A DNA stretch of 62,205 nucleotides from Armatimonadota bacterium. GTDB lineage: Bacteria; Armatimonadota; UBA5829; DTLH01. Of the stretch, positions 1,612 to 11,884 are shown piece by piece. A model generated the notes under the pieces. That model searched no databases. It saw only the letters and a program-made list of their open reading frames with translations, and was not told the origin of the DNA. Position 1 is the stretch's first letter. The number at the start of each line of letters is the position of its first letter. The stretch lies in NCBI GenBank assembly GCA_029551395.1, contig JAKPFN010000047.1:1-62205 (forward strand), in the 5' to 3' direction. A program made the translations under genes and the position numbers.

Positions 1612-1641
1612 AAAAGCCCGGGAGCCGGCTCCCGGGCTTTT
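1612..1641 (-). terminator. Terminator after the tandem selenoprotein-like genes
   Basis: A perfect 30-base palindrome: four A, then GCCCGGGAGCC/GGCTCCCGGGC, then four T. It lies 7 bases beyond the extended TAG stop at 1649-1651. This placement supports the longer reading frame, since it sits much closer to the TAG than to the TGA at 1784-1786. Being symmetric it could work in both directions. Confidence 0.8.
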
Positions 1642-1648
1642 GATGGTG

Positions 1649-3025
1649 CTATTCAACAATCTTCAACTTCTTCTCAGCCGTCAGCGTATCCTGATAAGGT
1701 GAAGCATCGAAGGTGGCGACTATCGTGTAATCGCCAGGTTTCCAATCTTTCGGTATTCTCACGGAATACCCACAGGAGCCACCTCACCCAAACGGGGCTT
1801 TACCGCTATCCACAATGCTGCCATCCGGAGCTTTGATCTCTACTTCAACAGCAGAAGCTCCGCTGATGCTCATTACTTGTGCGCCCGGAATAGTGAACTC
1901 CAGATCGATACGCAGTTCTTCATCCTGTTTTGCCACAATCCCATCTGGTTCGACTTTGATGGACATTGAAAGCGGCCCGCCGATGGTCAGCTCGACTACT
2001 TCATCCTTGCCTACCGAAATAGTCTCTATACTGTTCATCGAAAGCATAAAAGTAGACCTCTGTGACTCATCTTTTGTTATGGAAAGGGTAGCGCCAATCT
2101 TGTAACTGTCATCAGGCACTACTATTTCCTGACCTGGAGTGACATTAAAACCGCCTCCGGTACCATAGATCATTGAGGTAAATGCGCTGATGCTTTCACC
2201 AGTTCCATCCTTTGCTAAAACCTTTATTCTGCCGGTGTCTCCCGTATATGGAGATACGGTGATTGTTTCTCCACTCGGGCTGGCAGTGATGGAATACAGC
2301 TTGTCTTCATACTGTACTGCTTTACCGAAGAATTTCGCTGTGCTTATGTCTTCCCTGCTGTCTGAGGTCTGTTCTTTGAACTCGATCATGTCAGCTATGG
2401 GCCTGTCGGGAAACTCAAAAGGCTCACCAAAAACACCGTTACCATTCCGGTCTACAAGAATGACAGGCACTTCGCCTTCATCAGTTTTAATCGCTCCACT
2501 CCAGGCTCCGGCCATCTCCACTAAAACTCTGGAAACTTCACTCTCTGGCTTGGCCAGATACACACTCAGGTTCACTGCGTACTTTTTAACTGGACTTGAG
2601 CTTTCTGTGCCTGTGTGAAGGTTGACTTCATAGAGCTTAGACCTGTCTGTAACTATCAGGCTGTTTACTCGTGCTAACTCTATTGCAGTAGCGTTTTTTA
2701 GGTCAAGGTTACTGACTGATGGAATCATGTAAGCGGTGTCGTAGCCTTTACCGCTGCCTTTGGATTCATCGAGGATGATAGTAAACTGAACGCCTCTAGC
2801 TTTGATGCACTTGGAGGATTTAAGACCTTCGCAGCTTTTAATCTCCTCAGCCGTCATGTTCTCAAGTCTGAGCATAACGTTCGTTGTACCGTAGCGCGAC
2901 CAGGATAAGACGCCGGGTTGCCACTGCATCTGGTATGTGCCAGGCTGAAGGATGGCAGCAGCCGCAGGTGTTATGCCTGCGGCTGCGATTATTGCTATGA
3001 GGAGGTATGTTACAACGATTCTCAT
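1649..3025 (-). CDS. Secreted protein with predicted selenocysteine (in-frame TGA), paralogue 2
   Basis: Read through the TGA at 1784-1786, the gene encodes 458 residues and ends at TAG 1649-1651. I chose the ATG at 3025 because GGGGG lies 8 bases upstream; the ATG at 3031 sits right against that box. Residues 1-25 form a signal peptide (hydrophobic core, then TPAAAA). A Ca-loop-like DRNGNGVF segment occurs mid-protein. The C-terminal domain continues past the TGA as GGSCGYSVRIPKDW...PGDYTIVATFD, matching the neighbouring paralogue over exactly 45 codons. The motif is FG-U-GGSCG, with a Cys four residues after Sec, a plausible redox pair. A small hairpin follows the TGA. Function is unknown. 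The alternative is a real stop at TGA, giving a protein 45 residues shorter. Confidence 0.75.
1752..1786 (-). promoter_or_regulatory. Candidate bacterial SECIS hairpin after TGA, copy 2
   Basis: TGA (1786-1784) is followed after 13 bases by a perfect 7-bp stem GGTATTC/GAATACC closing the loop CGTGA. The loop starts 20 bases after the TGA and has G as its second base. Known bacterial SECIS elements have a G in the first two loop positions and a UGA-to-loop spacing of about 16-37 bases, so the fit is good. I did not see an obvious bulged U. Confidence 0.65.
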
Positions 3026-3035
3026 TGTCATCCCC

Positions 3036-4508
3036 CTACTCGACTACTTTAAGCGATTTCTTTGTTGTGATCTTGCCCTGGTAAGGGGTTGGATCGAAGC
3101 TAACAACTATTTCGTATGTTCCTGGCTCCCAATCTTCTGGTATACTCACGGCATACCCACAGGAACCGCCTCAGCCAAAGCTCGATTCGCCGCTTACAAG
3201 CTCATTGCCTTTAGCATCTAAGATGACCACCTGAGCGTTGCGGTCAATGCCGATATTGCTGACAGTGTTTTCACCCACTGTGAAGACTAGACTAATATAA
3301 AGATCTTCTCCACGCCTGGCTTCGATAACGTCAGATTCGGAGTCTATCCCAACAGTCATCGGGCCGCCGATTTTCAGAACAACCGTTTTATCTTTCTCGA
3401 TTACGACTGGATTATCAATAGTAACATCCAGACTGAATTGCCTCTCAACAGGGCCTTCCTGTTTGGGTCTTAGTGTTGCGAATTCACACTTATACTTGCC
3501 TGGAAGCAGGACAATCTCTCCTCCGCCTTCTGTAAAGACGGCAGTGTTGTCGCTGTATACTACGATAAACGGACAATCGACCGGCTTGTTGTTTCCATCC
3601 ACCGTTTCGATTTTAAGTTTGCCTGTATCGCCTGAATATGGTTTTATGGTCAGAGAATCCCCCGTTTTGCTTGTTTCGATCTCGTAAAGCTTGCCATCAT
3701 ATGATGCAGCCTTTCCCAGATAGATCAGATGGGTGTATTCATCCGGCTTCGGCATGTCTGGTACTGCTGTGCCAAGATAAAGTGCATCGCCAGGCTGAGG
3801 ATAGCCTCCGTATTCCTCATCCTCTACTACACTAAACTTGTCGTTAAAGGTGCCATTCTCGTTCATATCGACGAGGATAACATCCATATCACCTTCGCTG
3901 GTCTTTATCTTCCCAGTCCACGCACCTTTGATGTTGATGCTTGCGAAGTTGATATCAGGTATATCAGGCTCATCAGATTCCATAATATTGATTGAGACGT
4001 CAACCTCGGCCTTCTTAGTGATCTGCGAGCCTTCTTCACCGAATGTCAGGTCGATGGCATAGGTTTGCTTCGGGTCTGAGACCAGCATCTGGAAGCCTTC
4101 CCACATCTCAGCACCCTCTTCCTTCATACGCGGATCAAGCATCAGAGGTATGTTGACGACAGTGCTCAGGTCAAGAGGCTCATCACCACCATCAATATCA
4201 CTGGAGAAGAGGTAGGCAACATCGTAACCTTTTCCGTCACCTTTGGACTCATCAAGGATAATCCGCAGGTTGCCTACCTTGCCTGATAGGCACTTACTAG
4301 AAACCAGCCCCACATAGCCTTGCTTCTCTCTGGCTTCCATCACATCCAGTAATGCAGATATTTCCGAAGTGGCTTCATAACCAGTTTTTGTCTGTGGGAT
4401 TTTCCACTCCAGCTTGTAGGTTCCTGGATGGAAAGTGACTGCACACAACGGTACGGCTGCAGTAGTTAGAAACACTACAGCCAGAAGGATCCTGCAAAGA
4501 GATCTCAT
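3036..4508 (-). CDS. Secreted protein with predicted selenocysteine (in-frame TGA), paralogue 1
   Basis: Read through the TGA at 3171-3173, the gene encodes 490 residues with Sec at 446 and ends at TAG 3036-3038. An AGGAGGATG box precedes the ATG. Residues 1-23 are a signal peptide (CRILLAVVFLTTAAVPLCA). Like paralogue 2 it has FHPGTYKLEW at the mature N-terminus, an ILDESKGDGKGYD segment, a DMNENGTF Ca-loop-like segment and KPYSGDTGKLK. The C-terminal domain is FG-U-GGSCGYAVSIPEDW...PGTYEIVVSFD. The next gene starts 10 bases after the TAG, close enough for one operon. The two proteins are clearly homologous yet well diverged, so the shared TGA is unlikely to be a recent copied error. Family and function are unknown; an extracytoplasmic redox role is inference only. 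Confidence 0.75.
3139..3173 (-). promoter_or_regulatory. Candidate bacterial SECIS hairpin after TGA, copy 1
   Basis: After the TGA (3173-3171) and 13 bases, GGTATGC pairs with GTATACC around the same CGTGA loop. Compared with copy 2, stem pair 6 changes from T-A to G-T, so pairing is kept while sequence changes. Loop and spacing are identical in both copies. Confidence 0.65.
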
Positions 4509-4772: not shown

Positions 4773-5255
4773 ATGAAATGCCCATACTGCGGACACCAGG
4801 AAGATAAAGTCCTTGATTCCAGGAGCATACGAGAAGGCGAGGCTGTAAAACGCCGACGAGAGTGCCTCGAGTGCGGCCGCAGGTTCACAACCTACGAGCA
4901 TATAGAGGAAATGCAGGTCATGGTCATAAAAAAAGACCAGCGGCGCGAGCCGTTCGACCGCTCCAAAGTACTGAAAGGTATGATAACCGCCTGCGAAAAA
5001 CGGCCTGTGAGCATAGACAGGCTTGAATCTGCCGTAGATGACATCGAACGGACTATCTATGACAGCGGCCGCAGGGAAATCAACTCTGATGAAATAGGAG
5101 AGATGGTCATTGACAAGCTCAGGCAGATAGACCAGGTTGCCTATGTCCGTTTTGCGTCCGTTTATCGTCAGTTCCAGGACGTGACGCAGTTTAAGGAGAT
5201 CGTGGATATACTCGGCGGCAGAAGAAGAAAACCACCGGTCCGCAAATCGAAATAA
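4773..5255 (+). CDS. nrdR: Transcriptional repressor NrdR
   Basis: 160 residues, normal length for NrdR. The N-terminal zinc ribbon has Cys3/Cys6 (CPYC) and Cys31/Cys34 (CLEC), followed by GRRFTTYE. An ATP-cone domain follows from about residue 49 to 139 ([20 protein letters not shown] onward). NrdR senses ATP/dATP through the cone and represses ribonucleotide reductase genes. It starts right after two NrdR-box-like sites and lies 57 bases upstream of nrdJ, so it probably controls its own operon. The start at MKCPYCG is the family start; no strong ribosome binding site precedes it. Confidence 0.96.
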
Positions 5256-5312: not shown

Positions 5313-8300
5313 ATGTTGACACAGAACGCACTAACAGTGCTGGAAAAGAGATACCTCAGAAGAGATGAAGAGGGCAAAACCGTAGAAACTCCCGATGGGA
5401 TGTTTCAGCGGGTCGCATCTGCCATAGCAGAAGCGGAACGGGTCTACGGCAAGAAAAACTCAGAAGTAAAGGCTATTAAAGATCGGTTCTACGAGATGAT
5501 ATCCAATCTTGAGTTCCTTCCGAACAGCCCGACTCTTATGAATGCCGGACGTGAACTGGGACAGCTTTCTGCCTGCTTTGTCCTGCCTATCGGTGACTCG
5601 ATGGACAGCATATTCGAGACTATTAAACACACTGCACTCATTCATAAAAGCGGCGGCGGCACGGGGTTTGCGTTCTCTCGTCTGCGCCCGGCAAACGATG
5701 TAGTCCAATCAACAAATGGTGTCTCAAGCGGCCCCATTACCTTTATGGATGTATTCAACTCGGCTACGGAAGCTATAAAGCAGGGCGGAACCAGGCGCGG
5801 CGCGAATATGGGATGTCTGCGTGTGGATCATCCTGATATTCTGGACTTTATCACCTGCAAAAAAGACAACGACCGGCTGACCAACTTCAACATCTCCGTT
5901 CTTCTGACCGAGAAGTTCATGGAAGCCGTTGAACACAACAAAGACTACGACCTGGTGAATCCCCGCACAGGAGCAGTGGTCAAGACTCTGTCCGCACGCA
6001 AAGTATTCGACCTGATTGTCAACATGGCATGGTCCAACGGCGAACCGGGGATCATATTCATCGACCGGATAAACAGAGATAACCCTACACCTCACATCGG
6101 CGAGATAGAATCCACAAATCCGTGCATTACGGGAGACACTCTTATCTCTACAATGAGTGGCCTGCGCCGGATGGAAGATATTTACAAAGAACAGCTACTG
6201 CCTGAACTGGTGCTGGATAGCAGGGAGTGCGGTGAGTGCATCAGCAAAGCATCGCAAGTAGTTGCAACCGGTGTGAAGCAGGTTTATAAGCTGAAAACCA
6301 TCGAAGGGTACGAGGTTCGCCTTACGGCTGATCATAAGTTGAAGACAACCCGTGGATGGATCCCCGCTTGCGAACTCAAAAAGGGAGACCATATCCATAT
6401 ACTGGACCGCAAAGGCGGCTTCGGAACGGAAGGCTCGGAACGCCTGGGAATGCTGCTCGGTTGGCTGGTTGGCGATGGCACAATGAAGGCAACTGAGGCG
6501 GTGCTATCATTCTTTGGCGAGGAGAAGCAGGAACTGGCTCCGATGTTTGCCAGGATGATGTCTGAGGAGGTTGAAGGAACCCAGAGCTTGGACCGGGCTT
6601 ATACTTTGACCGGCTATAATGTTACAGACCGTGATGAGTATCGGATAAAGTCCCAAAGGTTCTGGAGAATTGCCAAAGAGCATGGAATCCTGCATGGAGA
6701 CAAGCACCGGGTGCCTGAAAGCGTGATTTGCGGCAGTGAATCTATGCAAAAAGGCTTCCTCCGGGCCATATTTACAGCGGACGGACATGTATCCGGCACG
6801 CGAAGCAAGGGAGTCAGCGTCAGGCTTACTTCAATCAATCGTGGTCTGCTGCTTGATATACAAAGAGTGCTGTTGAACTTTGGTATCTACTCCAAGTTGT
6901 ATCGCAACCGGCGGCCGGAAGGACTGCGAGAAATGCCTGATGCTTCCGGCGGATCCGCGCTTTACATTTGTAAGGGGTACGATGAGCTGGTGATTTCAAA
7001 ACGCTCGCTTGTAGCGTTTGCTGTGGAGATAGGTTTCTTATCACAGGCAAAACAGGCCAAGCTTCTTGCAGCAATCGAAGGCTACGATAGAGGCCCTTAC
7101 AGCGAATCATTCACAGCACGGTTTATGTCACTCGAACCTGATGGAGAAGAGATGGTCTACGACATCACGGAACCCATCAGCCATTCATTTGCTGCCAACG
7201 GATTAGTAGTCCACAACTGCGGGGAGCAGCCATTGCTGCCGTACGAAAGCTGCAACCTTGGTTCAATCAACCTGGCGAAGATGATAACTATAGACGACGG
7301 GCGGCCTGTGGTAGATTATGACAGGCTGCAGCAGGTGGTCCGGCAGTCGGTCAGGTTCCTGGATAACGTGATAGATGTCAACCGCTATCCCATAGAGCAG
7401 ATAGCAGAGATGACGCGCGGAAACAGAAAAATCGGGCTTGGGGTTATGGGGTTTGCTGATATGCTGATCCAGCTTGGTATTCCCTACGACAGCGAGGAAG
7501 GCATCCAGACGGCAGAAAACGTGATGAGCTTTATCTCTGAAGAAGCCCGAAAGATGTCATGCGAGCTGGCCGAGGAGCGCGGAGTGTTCCCGAACTTTGC
7601 AGGCAGCGTATTCGATACCCGCGATGCACTGAAAGTGCGAAATGCTACCGTGACGACTATTGCGCCAACCGGAACGCTTTCGATAATCGCAGGATGTTCC
7701 AGCGGAATCGAACCGCTCTTTGCCATAAGCTACGTCAGGAGAGTGCTCGACGGCGCGGAGCTTCTTGAAGTCAATCCTTACTTCGAAAAAATCGCCCGTG
7801 AGCGCGAGTTTTACAGCGAAAAGCTTATGAGAGAGATAGCCGAACGGGGCAGTGTTCGCGGGTTGGATGGTGTTCCGTCCGATGTCCAGCGGGTATTTGC
7901 CACAGCGCTGGATATTGCTCCGGTATGGCATATCAGGATGCAAGCGGCGTTTCAGCGGTTTACGGACAATGCAGTTTCGAAGACCGTCAACTTCCCCGAG
8001 GACGCGACTCCTGACGATGTTCGCGAAGTGTATACGCTCGCTTATCGTGAAGGATGCAAAGGATGTACAATCTATCGTTACGGAAGCCGCGAGTCCCAGG
8101 TGCTCTCCTTCTCAGGTTCAGGCTCTGGCACTAAGGCCGCTGACGCCGCCGCTACAGCAGAAATCAGCAGGGCACCAAGGCCAAGACCTGCCAGAACATT
8201 CGGAGCTACAGAGCGGATCAACACTGGCTGCGGGAATATGTACGTCACTATCAACGAGGACGAATCCGGCTTGTGCGAGCTTTTTGCAGCGATGGGCAAG

Positions 8301-8648
8301 GCCGGAGGCTGCGCTGCAAGTCAGTTGGAGGCTATCGGAAGGCTGGTCTCGCTTTCACTTCGCACTGGAGTCAACCCAAGGTCGCTGGTCAAGCACTTGA
8401 GAGGAATCCGCTGCCCATCTCCTGCATGGGGACCTGGAGGATCTGTGCTGTCCTGCGCTGACGCGATAGGAATCGCACTGGAACGGTATCTGAACGCAAA
8501 GGATACAGGTGAAATCAGCGAAGGGATCAGCAAGATGAGCGATAAACTCGACAACCTGATGGGAGCCTGCCCTGAATGCGGCGGCGCTATAGAACACGAA
8601 AGCGGCTGTATAGTCTGCAGGCTGTGCGGATTCAGCAAGTGCGGTTAG
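5313..8648 (+). CDS. nrdJ: Vitamin B12-dependent (class II) ribonucleotide reductase with intein
   Basis: 1111 residues including a 365-residue intein (271-635); the spliced enzyme is 746 residues. Extein motifs are [12 protein letters not shown] near 70, [14 protein letters not shown] near 112 and, after splicing, [21 protein letters not shown]. The last carries the Asn/Cys/Glu active-site set of ribonucleotide reductases. The C-terminal part has the small-domain motif [13 protein letters not shown] and ends in a four-Cys zinc-like region (CPECGG...[10 protein letters not shown]). Class II enzymes use adenosylcobalamin to reduce ribonucleotides and work with or without oxygen. GGAGGG precedes the ATG. 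It is co-transcribed with nrdR and followed by a terminator. No B12 riboswitch fits in the 57-base gap. Confidence 0.95.
6123..7217 (+). other. Intein with LAGLIDADG endonuclease domain inside nrdJ
   Basis: Residues 271-635 of NrdJ. The first intein residue is Cys271 in [13 protein letters not shown] (block A). Block B is seen as [14 protein letters not shown]. Two LAGLIDADG helices appear near 379-390 ([11 protein letters not shown]) and 481-493 ([12 protein letters not shown]). The C-terminal block is [12 protein letters not shown]...ANGLVVHN, ending in His-Asn, followed by Cys+1. It interrupts the reductase directly before its catalytic cysteine, leaving NP|CGEQ on splicing. Both splice-junction residues look intact, and so does the endonuclease core. 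Confidence 0.95.
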
Positions 8649-9652: not shown

Positions 9653-11884
9653 CTACTGAGGCGGGAAGTTTTCAGGCATCCATACCGGCAAATCAGCTAC
9701 CTGCTCCCGAGCTTTCTCGGATGTAGGCACACCCCATGCCTGGAAAAATGGCCCAAGATTTCTCCCGACGGTCTTCGATAACCTGATAAGCCATTGATCC
9801 CGCTTCTCATCATCAGTTTTTGGCCGCTCTCCGGCAGGTAAGTCCCGATATTCAACAAACACCTTCTTGTAAGCATCCCAACCAAATGCTTCTTGTATTT
9901 GGATATACATGAGAAGCGCAAGGAACGGATCGCTTTTCCATTTTTCGAAGTCCGGGTTGGACAGGTAAGGTTTCATCATCTTGATTCGGCCTTCAGGAGA
10001 AAAATCCCGCAGCTCAACAGGCTTTTTGCCGAGCACTGTGTCATAGACATACAGGGTAAACAGGTTGACGGTCACCTCTCCAGTGCCTTCGAATGTCCAA
10101 TCCGGTAACTGGTGGTTGTGCCCCATCTCATGGAAAAGCCCCCAGACTCCTCCGTGGCTGTTTGAGAGGATTGCGTCTTTGTTTACCATCGTATCAACAA
10201 TGTCCAGATGAGTCATCATTGGGTAGCCTGAATGCATGTAACCTGCGCTGATTTGGACATCTGCAACGTAGCGTTCAGGCCGCTGCCGATCACGCGGCCA
10301 GCCTGCAAGGTCGGCAATTGCATCAGAAATCTGGTCCCAAAGCCTCATAACCGGTTCCGGGTCTTCCAGTTCCCTGATTGCAGACGATGGAACAGTAATT
10401 ATGACCTTGTCGGTTGCCAGTTCAGCCCAGGGTGCAGGATTTTTACGGTTCTGCTGCCATTGGGATTGAGTGGTCTCGCCCAGTTTGAAGTATGGCGCTT
10501 TGACTCCGTTGTGGATTCCGAACGTAAGCTCTCCTAAATCACAGTTTTCCGGCACTTCTATGTAGACCAGTCCTCCAAAAGCATTTGCGGCTTCCTGTAA
10601 GAGACTTTCCATCACAAATGTTCTGGTGATTTCAGGCACACGTTTCCAAGTATCCAGGTGCCAGATTGTATCGCTGTGGCAGCCGATTCTGACTCGGAAG
10701 TTCTTATCCATTACCAAGGGTGATGCATAAACTGTTATGCGTTCTCCGGGTGCTGCGTAGATACCCGTGCTGTGCCATCCTGGGATGCTGGTGTTGATTT
10801 TAACTCGCTCTCCAAGTCCGGCAGCTTCACCTCGGTTCGGAGACGCTCCGGGGAAATCATCTGCTGCAGGATGGGCGCGCACTTCTGTGATTGGACTTCT
10901 GTTAATCTCGTTTACCTGCAGTGTGAGGAGCAGTCTGGCAAGCGGGTCTTTGGCAGTAAGCGGTTTTTCGCTGGTTGGAATCAATTCAGACTGGTGTTCT
11001 GCCTGAAGAGCACGCAGTTCAGGCAGGATTTCTTTATCAGTGCTCGGTAGAGACATTGCTGCACGAGTCACAATCCAGCCAGCCTGAGCTACTTCATCTT
11101 CGGTAAATACGTCTTTGTCTTGTGAATAAGTCTTTATTACATTGAGCGCATGTTTGGCATTGGTAAGTTCTCCAGGCGTATCCTTTACAGAAAAACCATT
11201 TTTGGTAGTCCGGTCGAGCATACCATCAGCCCACATGATGCCCAGTGGAGCAAGCAACTTGTTACCGGGAAGTTCAATAAGGCTTTTTCCTGGATTGAGT
11301 TGAAGCCATCCCCAACCTAGTCCGGCTGTGATGAACCCTCCTCCAGCCTTGATGAACGCCATGACTGCATCCATATCCGCATCAGAGAACGCCGCAGGGA
11401 CGGCACACAGTACATCATAATTCGCCAGCTCGGTAGCCTGCAGGGGAAGCGATATATCATCCGCCTGCACCGAATGTTTTCTCAGAAATTCGAGCATTCC
11501 CGGTGAGTTCACAACGGCAACACGCTGCTTGGCTAGCTCGTCTTTTCCGGCAGACCAGGAGACTGCATTCAGCATCAATCTGCCTGTATCCATTGTGTTC
11601 AACGTTTCTTTATCGAAGTAGCCATCGTGCCCAAATACGACAATCCTGCCGCTTGCTACACGGCCTGCAGCGACGACCGGTTCATCAATCTTCCCAACCT
11701 TACCGGTTACAACAGCAAAAGCGTTATCGCCAGACACACAAAGCGGCCCTGGCACACCAGGCGCGGCGATTTCGTTTACGCCATCAAGTAAAAACTCCAA
11801 ATCCTCTTTAGGAACATCTGCTCTTACTGCCACAAAAGATAAAGTGACAAAAAAGAGGGCTGCAACAAATAATCTTACTCCCAT
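9653..11884 (-). CDS. Secreted M60-like (enhancin-type) metallopeptidase
   Basis: 743 residues. An N-terminal signal peptide (VRLFVAALFFVTLSFVAVRA) is followed by about 300 residues that look like a GATase1/ThuA-type fold (repeated AFIKAGGGFITAGLGWGW, LLAPLGIMW). A middle beta-rich region contains GWHSTGIYAAPGERITVY, seen in M60 proteins. The catalytic zinc motif HEMGHNHQ lies at 585-589, with a downstream Glu in FEGTGEVTVNLF. M60-like enzymes cut heavily glycosylated proteins such as mucins, so this one may act on extracellular glycoproteins. The gene is alone on its strand. The substrate is unknown. Confidence 0.85.
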   Translation of the reverse strand: MGVRLFVAALFFVTLSFVAVRADVPKEDLEFLLDGVNEIAAPGVPGPLCVSGDNAFAVVTGKVGKIDEPVVAAGRVASGRIVVFGHDGYFDKETLNTMDTGRLMLNAVSWSAGKDELAKQRVAVVNSPGMLEFLRKHSVQADDISLPLQATELANYDVLCAVPAAFSDADMDAVMAFIKAGGGFITAGLGWGWLQLNPGKSLIELPGNKLLAPLGIMWADGMLDRTTKNGFSVKDTPGELTNAKHALNVIKTYSQDKDVFTEDEVAQAGWIVTRAAMSLPSTDKEILPELRALQAEHQSELIPTSEKPLTAKDPLARLLLTLQVNEINRSPITEVRAHPAADDFPGASPNRGEAAGLGERVKINTSIPGWHSTGIYAAPGERITVYASPLVMDKNFRVRIGCHSDTIWHLDTWKRVPEITRTFVMESLLQEAANAFGGLVYIEVPENCDLGELTFGIHNGVKAPYFKLGETTQSQWQQNRKNPAPWAELATDKVIITVPSSAIRELEDPEPVMRLWDQISDAIADLAGWPRDRQRPERYVADVQISAGYMHSGYPMMTHLDIVDTMVNKDAILSNSHGGVWGLFHEMGHNHQLPDWTFEGTGEVTVNLFTLYVYDTVLGKKPVELRDFSPEGRIKMMKPYLSNPDFEKWKSDPFLALLMYIQIQEAFGWDAYKKVFVEYRDLPAGERPKTDDEKRDQWLIRLSKTVGRNLGPFFQAWGVPTSEKAREQVADLPVWMPENFPPQ

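Follow-up and report, generated by a model that had tools for sequence, protein, structure and literature searches.

The window, a 62,205-nt stretch of DNA from an Armatimonadota bacterium, carries on its minus strand two tandem genes, here called A and B, each of which has a single in-frame TGA in an otherwise uninterrupted frame and ends in TAG. A preliminary description of this DNA proposed the two as selenoprotein candidates, a proposal that is now strongly supported by sel genes in the genome, a hairpin behind the TGA and homologues with UGA at the same column. The features are as follows, with ‘Sec domain’ denoting the domain that holds the UGA-encoded residue:

1649–3031, minus strand: gene A, encoding UGA member A (460 aa), with its ATG at the 3031 end and its TAG stop at 1649–1651
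1784–1786, minus strand: putative selenocysteine (Sec) UGA codon of member A, the sole in-frame TGA of the gene
1753–1769, minus strand: bSECIS-type hairpin of member A (GUAUUC-CGUGA-GAAUAC), with G at loop position 2 and the apical loop ~21 nt past the UGA
1652–1966, minus strand: C-terminal Sec domain of member A, a predicted Ig/MG2-like beta-sandwich and the part common to the whole family (alignment A2, sub-threshold Pfam MG2 match, structural model)
1612–1641, minus strand: intrinsic terminator directly 3' of the gene A TAG (-23.9 kcal/mol, z -4.2)
3036–4508, minus strand: gene B, encoding UGA member B (490 aa), with its TAG at 3036–3038
3171–3173, minus strand: putative Sec-UGA codon of member B, the sole in-frame TGA of the gene
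3140–3156, minus strand: bSECIS-type hairpin of member B (GUAUGC-CGUGA-GUAUAC)
3039–3353, minus strand: C-terminal Sec domain of member B (alignment A2; whole-protein Pfam MG2 match under the cut-off)

In both genes, 44 sense codons separate the TGA from the TAG; the closure by TAG had been recognized before, while the earlier count of exactly 45 codons is reached only if the TGA itself is included. Protein identity between A and B is 33% before the TGA and 61% after it. Because pN is lower behind the TGA (pN/pS of 0.22/0.73, against 0.48/0.79 ahead of it) at a pS of 0.73–0.79, the downstream part is under stronger protein selection than the upstream part, in line with the selection that had been suspected from the close match of the two segments. 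The gene B TAG lies 4 nt from the gene A ATG and the terminator sits right behind the gene A TAG, so the transcription unit is built around the TAGs and not the TGAs. TGA is a normal stop in the window, as first supposed, since it terminates 9 of the 30 larger open reading frames, and a changed genetic code in which TGA is a sense codon throughout was rejected on this count. A chance open frame behind a stop was likewise ruled out, by 113 homologues and by the pN/pS values.

By eye, both proteins begin with a hydrophobic, signal-like segment, and they are probably exported. Protein A continues as a chain of beta-sandwich domains, with the presumed Sec at residue 416 and a Cys at residue 420; the corresponding residues of protein B are 446 and 450. 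The N-terminal parts of both (window 1649–4508) share conserved DESKGxGxGYD and DxNxNG motifs that resemble calcium-binding loops by eye. Nearby genes include a large M60 (enhancin-like) peptidase (9653–11884) and a ribonucleotide reductase (5313–8648) that contains a LAGLIDADG intein and a TSCPD domain; upstream of the reductase gene, 4773–5255 encodes a protein that by eye resembles NrdR.

The sel genes that a selenoprotein reading calls for elsewhere in the genome are all present: the assembly, 98.7% complete, contains selA (576 bits), selB (363 bits), selD (378 bits) and a tRNA-Sec (68 bits) with anticodon TCA. They lie on other contigs, and the A/B pair is not adjacent to them. The same genome encodes two further UGA members, C41 (GYTUGGSGCAY) and C94 (YGUGGTCTYSGG, directly beside selA), as well as one paralogue without UGA (C133).

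Relatives also occur beyond this genome. A contig scan by peptide patterns yielded only three of them because the patterns were taken from the N-terminal part; a profile built from the C-terminal domain (A2) proved the productive query. Searched against whole genomes, it places the family in 29 of the 291 genomes from the window's phylum. Within Planctomycetota, the Phycisphaerae genome MAG24 has seven members, all with TGA, and the family occurs in 58 of 397 genomes of MAG24's class, where one genome can hold as many as 12 copies. A sample of 392 genomes from the phylum of MAG24 contains 41 with the family. Nearly all whole-genome matches contain one TGA and no other stop. Among 124 distinct readable domains, the Sec column holds U in 113, Cys in three (one of these rows, L031, being a doubtful alignment) and other residues in eight, the non-UGA homologues having Cys, Ser, Trp, Gly or another residue there. 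The search for homologues with Cys at the TGA position thus returned few, the clear ones being L065 (FGCGGVC) and L073 (GFGCATC), both from genomes without a selA match, while Sec homologues are abundant. The U form predominates in the domain tree; the switches to other residues, no fewer than 10, are scattered among U branches. Furthermore, within the window's phylum 24 of the 25 genomes with a UGA form have selA (Fisher p 1.8e-7), as do 49 of the 58 family genomes in the Planctomycetota class (p 1e-15), although these p-values overstate independence because the genomes are related. Ten family genomes lack a selA match, nine from the Planctomycetota class plus G057, whose member has UGA; gaps in the draft assemblies may account for them. 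In 27 genomes a family member lies within 5 kb of selA.

The hairpin behind the UGA is best judged across the family. Its stems in A and B differ by changes that preserve pairing, and its position is nearly fixed: in most members the apical loop lies ~21 nt past the UGA. In an alignment of 41 rows selected by protein motif, 98% of the pair cells of the stem are standard pairs, 35 stem cells are changed on both sides (6.2 in shuffles), and the covariation score is 0.481 against 0.189 in shuffles; slid registers fail, and RNAalifold recovers the same stem. When codons are shuffled synonymously, which keeps the protein unchanged, the stem scores on average 1.99 sd above the shuffles in 111 UGA members and 0.28 sd below them in 11 non-UGA homologues. 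Together with the compensatory changes, this rules out the element as a by-product of protein conservation. The two window hairpins taken alone have no significant folding z-score (z -1.1 to +0.5), the evidence being at the level of the family, and Rfam has no match in the window. The published bSECIS model describes a 3–9 nt loop with a G among its first two positions, on a 4–16 bp stem, 16–37 nt from the UGA (PMC13188914); the family hairpin fits this description, with minority loops such as AUGGC that have their first G at position 3.

We consider it highly probable that A and B are exported selenoproteins of a large, apparently unrecorded family, in which UGA is decoded as Sec via SelB, tRNA-Sec and the downstream hairpin, and in which Sec lies in an Ig/MG2-like C-terminal domain. 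That the residue at the UGA is Sec we regard as close to certain on sequence grounds. In the proposed mechanism, SelB and tRNA-Sec would read the UGA as selenocysteine under guidance of the hairpin ~17–33 nt downstream, the step of the model that the sequences support well.

Two other readings of the codon deserve consideration. The UGA could be a true stop, with the downstream part a relic or a rarely made extension; the frame ahead of it is long, and annotation pipelines would call it a stop. Yet purifying selection is stronger behind the UGA than before it, the last three strands of the domain are encoded there, the TAG and not the UGA adjoins the next gene and the terminator, and the UGA is conserved in 113 domains from two bacterial groups, which leaves this reading with almost no probability. 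The codon could instead be decoded as Cys, Trp or another residue by a near-cognate or special tRNA, and the variety of residues found in non-UGA homologues indicates that the position would tolerate several. This is nevertheless very improbable, given the canonical tRNA-Sec(TCA), selA, selB and selD in the genome, hairpin geometry that equals that of a bSECIS, the co-occurrence and adjacency of family and selA, and the use of TGA as a stop elsewhere in the window; moreover, the two genomes that encode Cys directly are those without selA.

The family motif reads [YF]-G-U-G-G-[TS]-C-x-Y-S-[WV]-R-V-P. The motif originally described, FG-U-GGSCG with a Cys four residues on, therefore holds in its spacing (U-x3-C) and for most members, the Cys at +4 being present in 95 of 113 UGA members (84%) and, where present, one of the best conserved residues; it does not extend to the whole family. 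Because Cys is absent at +4 in 16% of members and from +4 to +6 in ~10%, a mechanism that strictly needs both residues may not apply to every one of them. The model of gene A (pLDDT 90) is a chain of beta-sandwich domains in which U416 and C420 stand on either side of a hairpin turn and the last three strands of the Sec domain come after the UGA. A compact, sel-linked member (pLDDT 89) is modelled as a beta-sandwich chain behind a helix that resembles a membrane anchor. As modelled, the Sec domain is an Ig-like beta-sandwich and not a thioredoxin fold; assignment to the thioredoxin-fold UxxC/CxxU oxidoreductases was rejected on the beta-sandwich models and on a spacer of three residues instead of two. 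A PDB sequence search with the Sec domain gave nothing significant. The matches listed in a PDB fold search are macroglobulin/complement, pilin, adhesin, S-layer and DUF3823 proteins, all generic beta-sandwiches with low TM-scores.

In the genome of the window, the sel locus is apparently spread over two contigs, C94 and C66, as the selA match is divided between contig ends. Its order is a NapH/NosR-like Fer4_5 membrane protein, a UGA member, selA, selD with an AhpD-like domain, selB, a methyltransferase and an HGD-D double-cubane reductase, and similar neighbours recur. The NapH/NosR-like gene adjoins the sel-linked family member (L081:2303-3097; L083:7442-8287). The SelD protein carries a Cys-rich extension at its N-terminus and, fused at its C-terminus, a carboxymuconolactone decarboxylase/AhpD-like domain (L082:176-1756; L138:14449-16053). 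In both groups the sel loci also encode HGD-D/double-cubane-type reductases, and close to these a BadF-type activase or a methyltransferase (L082:4560-5612; L138:11218-14371); the reductases and activase might perhaps contribute an ATP-driven reduction step in selenium supply. Additionally, some genomes have arrays of several UGA members within ~20 kb around selA/selB (L137; L138 of G654; L139–L140 of G553; L141 of G681).

What the proteins do is a matter of interpretation. Sec is predicted to lie in a tight beta-hairpin of the C-terminal Ig/MG2-like beta-sandwich, usually with Cys four residues on, and the two could act as a reversible selenenylsulfide/selenol-thiol pair, exchanging electrons with some extracytoplasmic partner in the manner of the N-terminal domain of DsbD (nDsbD) with its two cysteines. 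We infer that the most likely role is that of an extracytoplasmic selenol/thiol redox site. Motif and neighbouring genes are the grounds for this role and for a candidate electron donor: for the copies in sel operons, electrons may come from the adjoining NapH/NosR-like membrane iron-sulfur protein. For the Sec-Cys pair as the working site, we see the case as evenly balanced.

Sec might also act without a UxxxC partner, alone (in peroxide or electrophile reduction or in metal binding) or in selenium handling. The members without Cys at +4 speak for this, as does the strong linkage to the genes for selA, selD, selB, the HGD-D reductase, the activase and the methyltransferase; the strong conservation of this Cys in all others speaks against it, as does the A/B pair, which lies away from the sel genes. 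We hold this to be a serious possibility, if somewhat short of probable. The proteins might also be mainly structural, with Sec-Cys bonds, or Sec-Sec bonds between copies, cross-linking surface proteins of Ig-like domains, as the pilins, adhesins, S-layer proteins and MG domains among the listed fold matches and the many copies per genome would allow. Sec is, however, a costly choice for a static bond, and the compact copies look like single membrane-anchored proteins of sel operons; we consider a structural role unlikely.

A conserved recoding site, the SECIS, the machinery and the sel linkage are established by sequence. Taken as a whole, the data make it probable that this is a large, uncatalogued family of exported selenoproteins with an Ig-like fold, in which Sec is the usual residue but has been replaced or lost repeatedly, and that its compact members with a membrane anchor belong to a conserved sel operon with SelA, SelD (as an AhpD fusion), SelB, a NapH-like membrane iron-sulfur protein, a methyltransferase and double-cubane reductases. 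If so, the selenoproteome counts of two bacterial groups change, by as many as 12 copies per genome, and Sec chemistry outside the cytoplasm gains a new fold; the majority of characterized selenoproteins adopt a thioredoxin-like fold (PMC13188914). The family may also help to explain the upkeep of the Sec trait, and could be a major reason for it in these lineages. One current method for finding selenoproteins uses Cys homologues as a filter, and families lacking them may escape it (PMC12013277); the family may have been overlooked because its Cys homologues are few. In public annotation, such genes are expected to look truncated at the UGA.

The earlier statement that no named family is known to have this motif stands for the resources compared, namely a 2026 catalogue of 119 selenoprotein families, in which none is recognisable as this one (PMC13188914), NCBIfam (June 2026), which has no matching model, and Pfam. 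The main text of a 2016 planctomycete paper reports other selenoproteins (PMC4807772). No description of the family was found in the literature that could be searched, the coverage of which is incomplete, and a prior description is possible. Among named proteins, the UGSC-containing protein (NF041046) likewise has Sec, Gly, Ser and Cys within a short stretch, but its motif is U-G-S-C (UxxC) and that of the family U-G-G-[ST]-C (UxxxC), and its NCBIfam model is not matched by the family. Similarly, the catalogue motif of Hypothetical protein DG (NF049953), GUxG, fits the GUGG of the family, but its model matched none of ten family members at E up to 1.

With bacterial SelB/bSECIS selenoproteins in general, the family shares the in-frame UGA, SelA, SelB, SelD and tRNA-Sec, and a hairpin 16–37 nt downstream that has a G among its first two loop positions; it differs in a motif and fold outside the 119-family catalogue (PMC13188914) and in Sec forms that heavily outnumber Cys forms. 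For the domain itself, MG2 (PF01835) gives a weak profile match (E 5e-5 to 4e-4), and macroglobulin/complement proteins appear in the fold search; the Sec domain, at 24.1 bits, and the whole proteins, at 22.1 and 21.1 bits, nevertheless score under the Pfam gathering score of 32.8. We know of no redox motif in MG2. In nDsbD, by contrast, an Ig-like domain outside the cytoplasm carries a two-cysteine redox pair on a beta-hairpin. Family membership is not claimed, as no sequence match between nDsbD and the family was found and nDsbD is absent from the 50 PDB fold matches listed, and its pair consists of two Cys where the family would have Sec and Cys; the likeness lies in the proposed mode of action, that of an Ig-like redox domain outside the cytoplasm with its reactive pair at a hairpin, the position predicted for Sec and Cys here.
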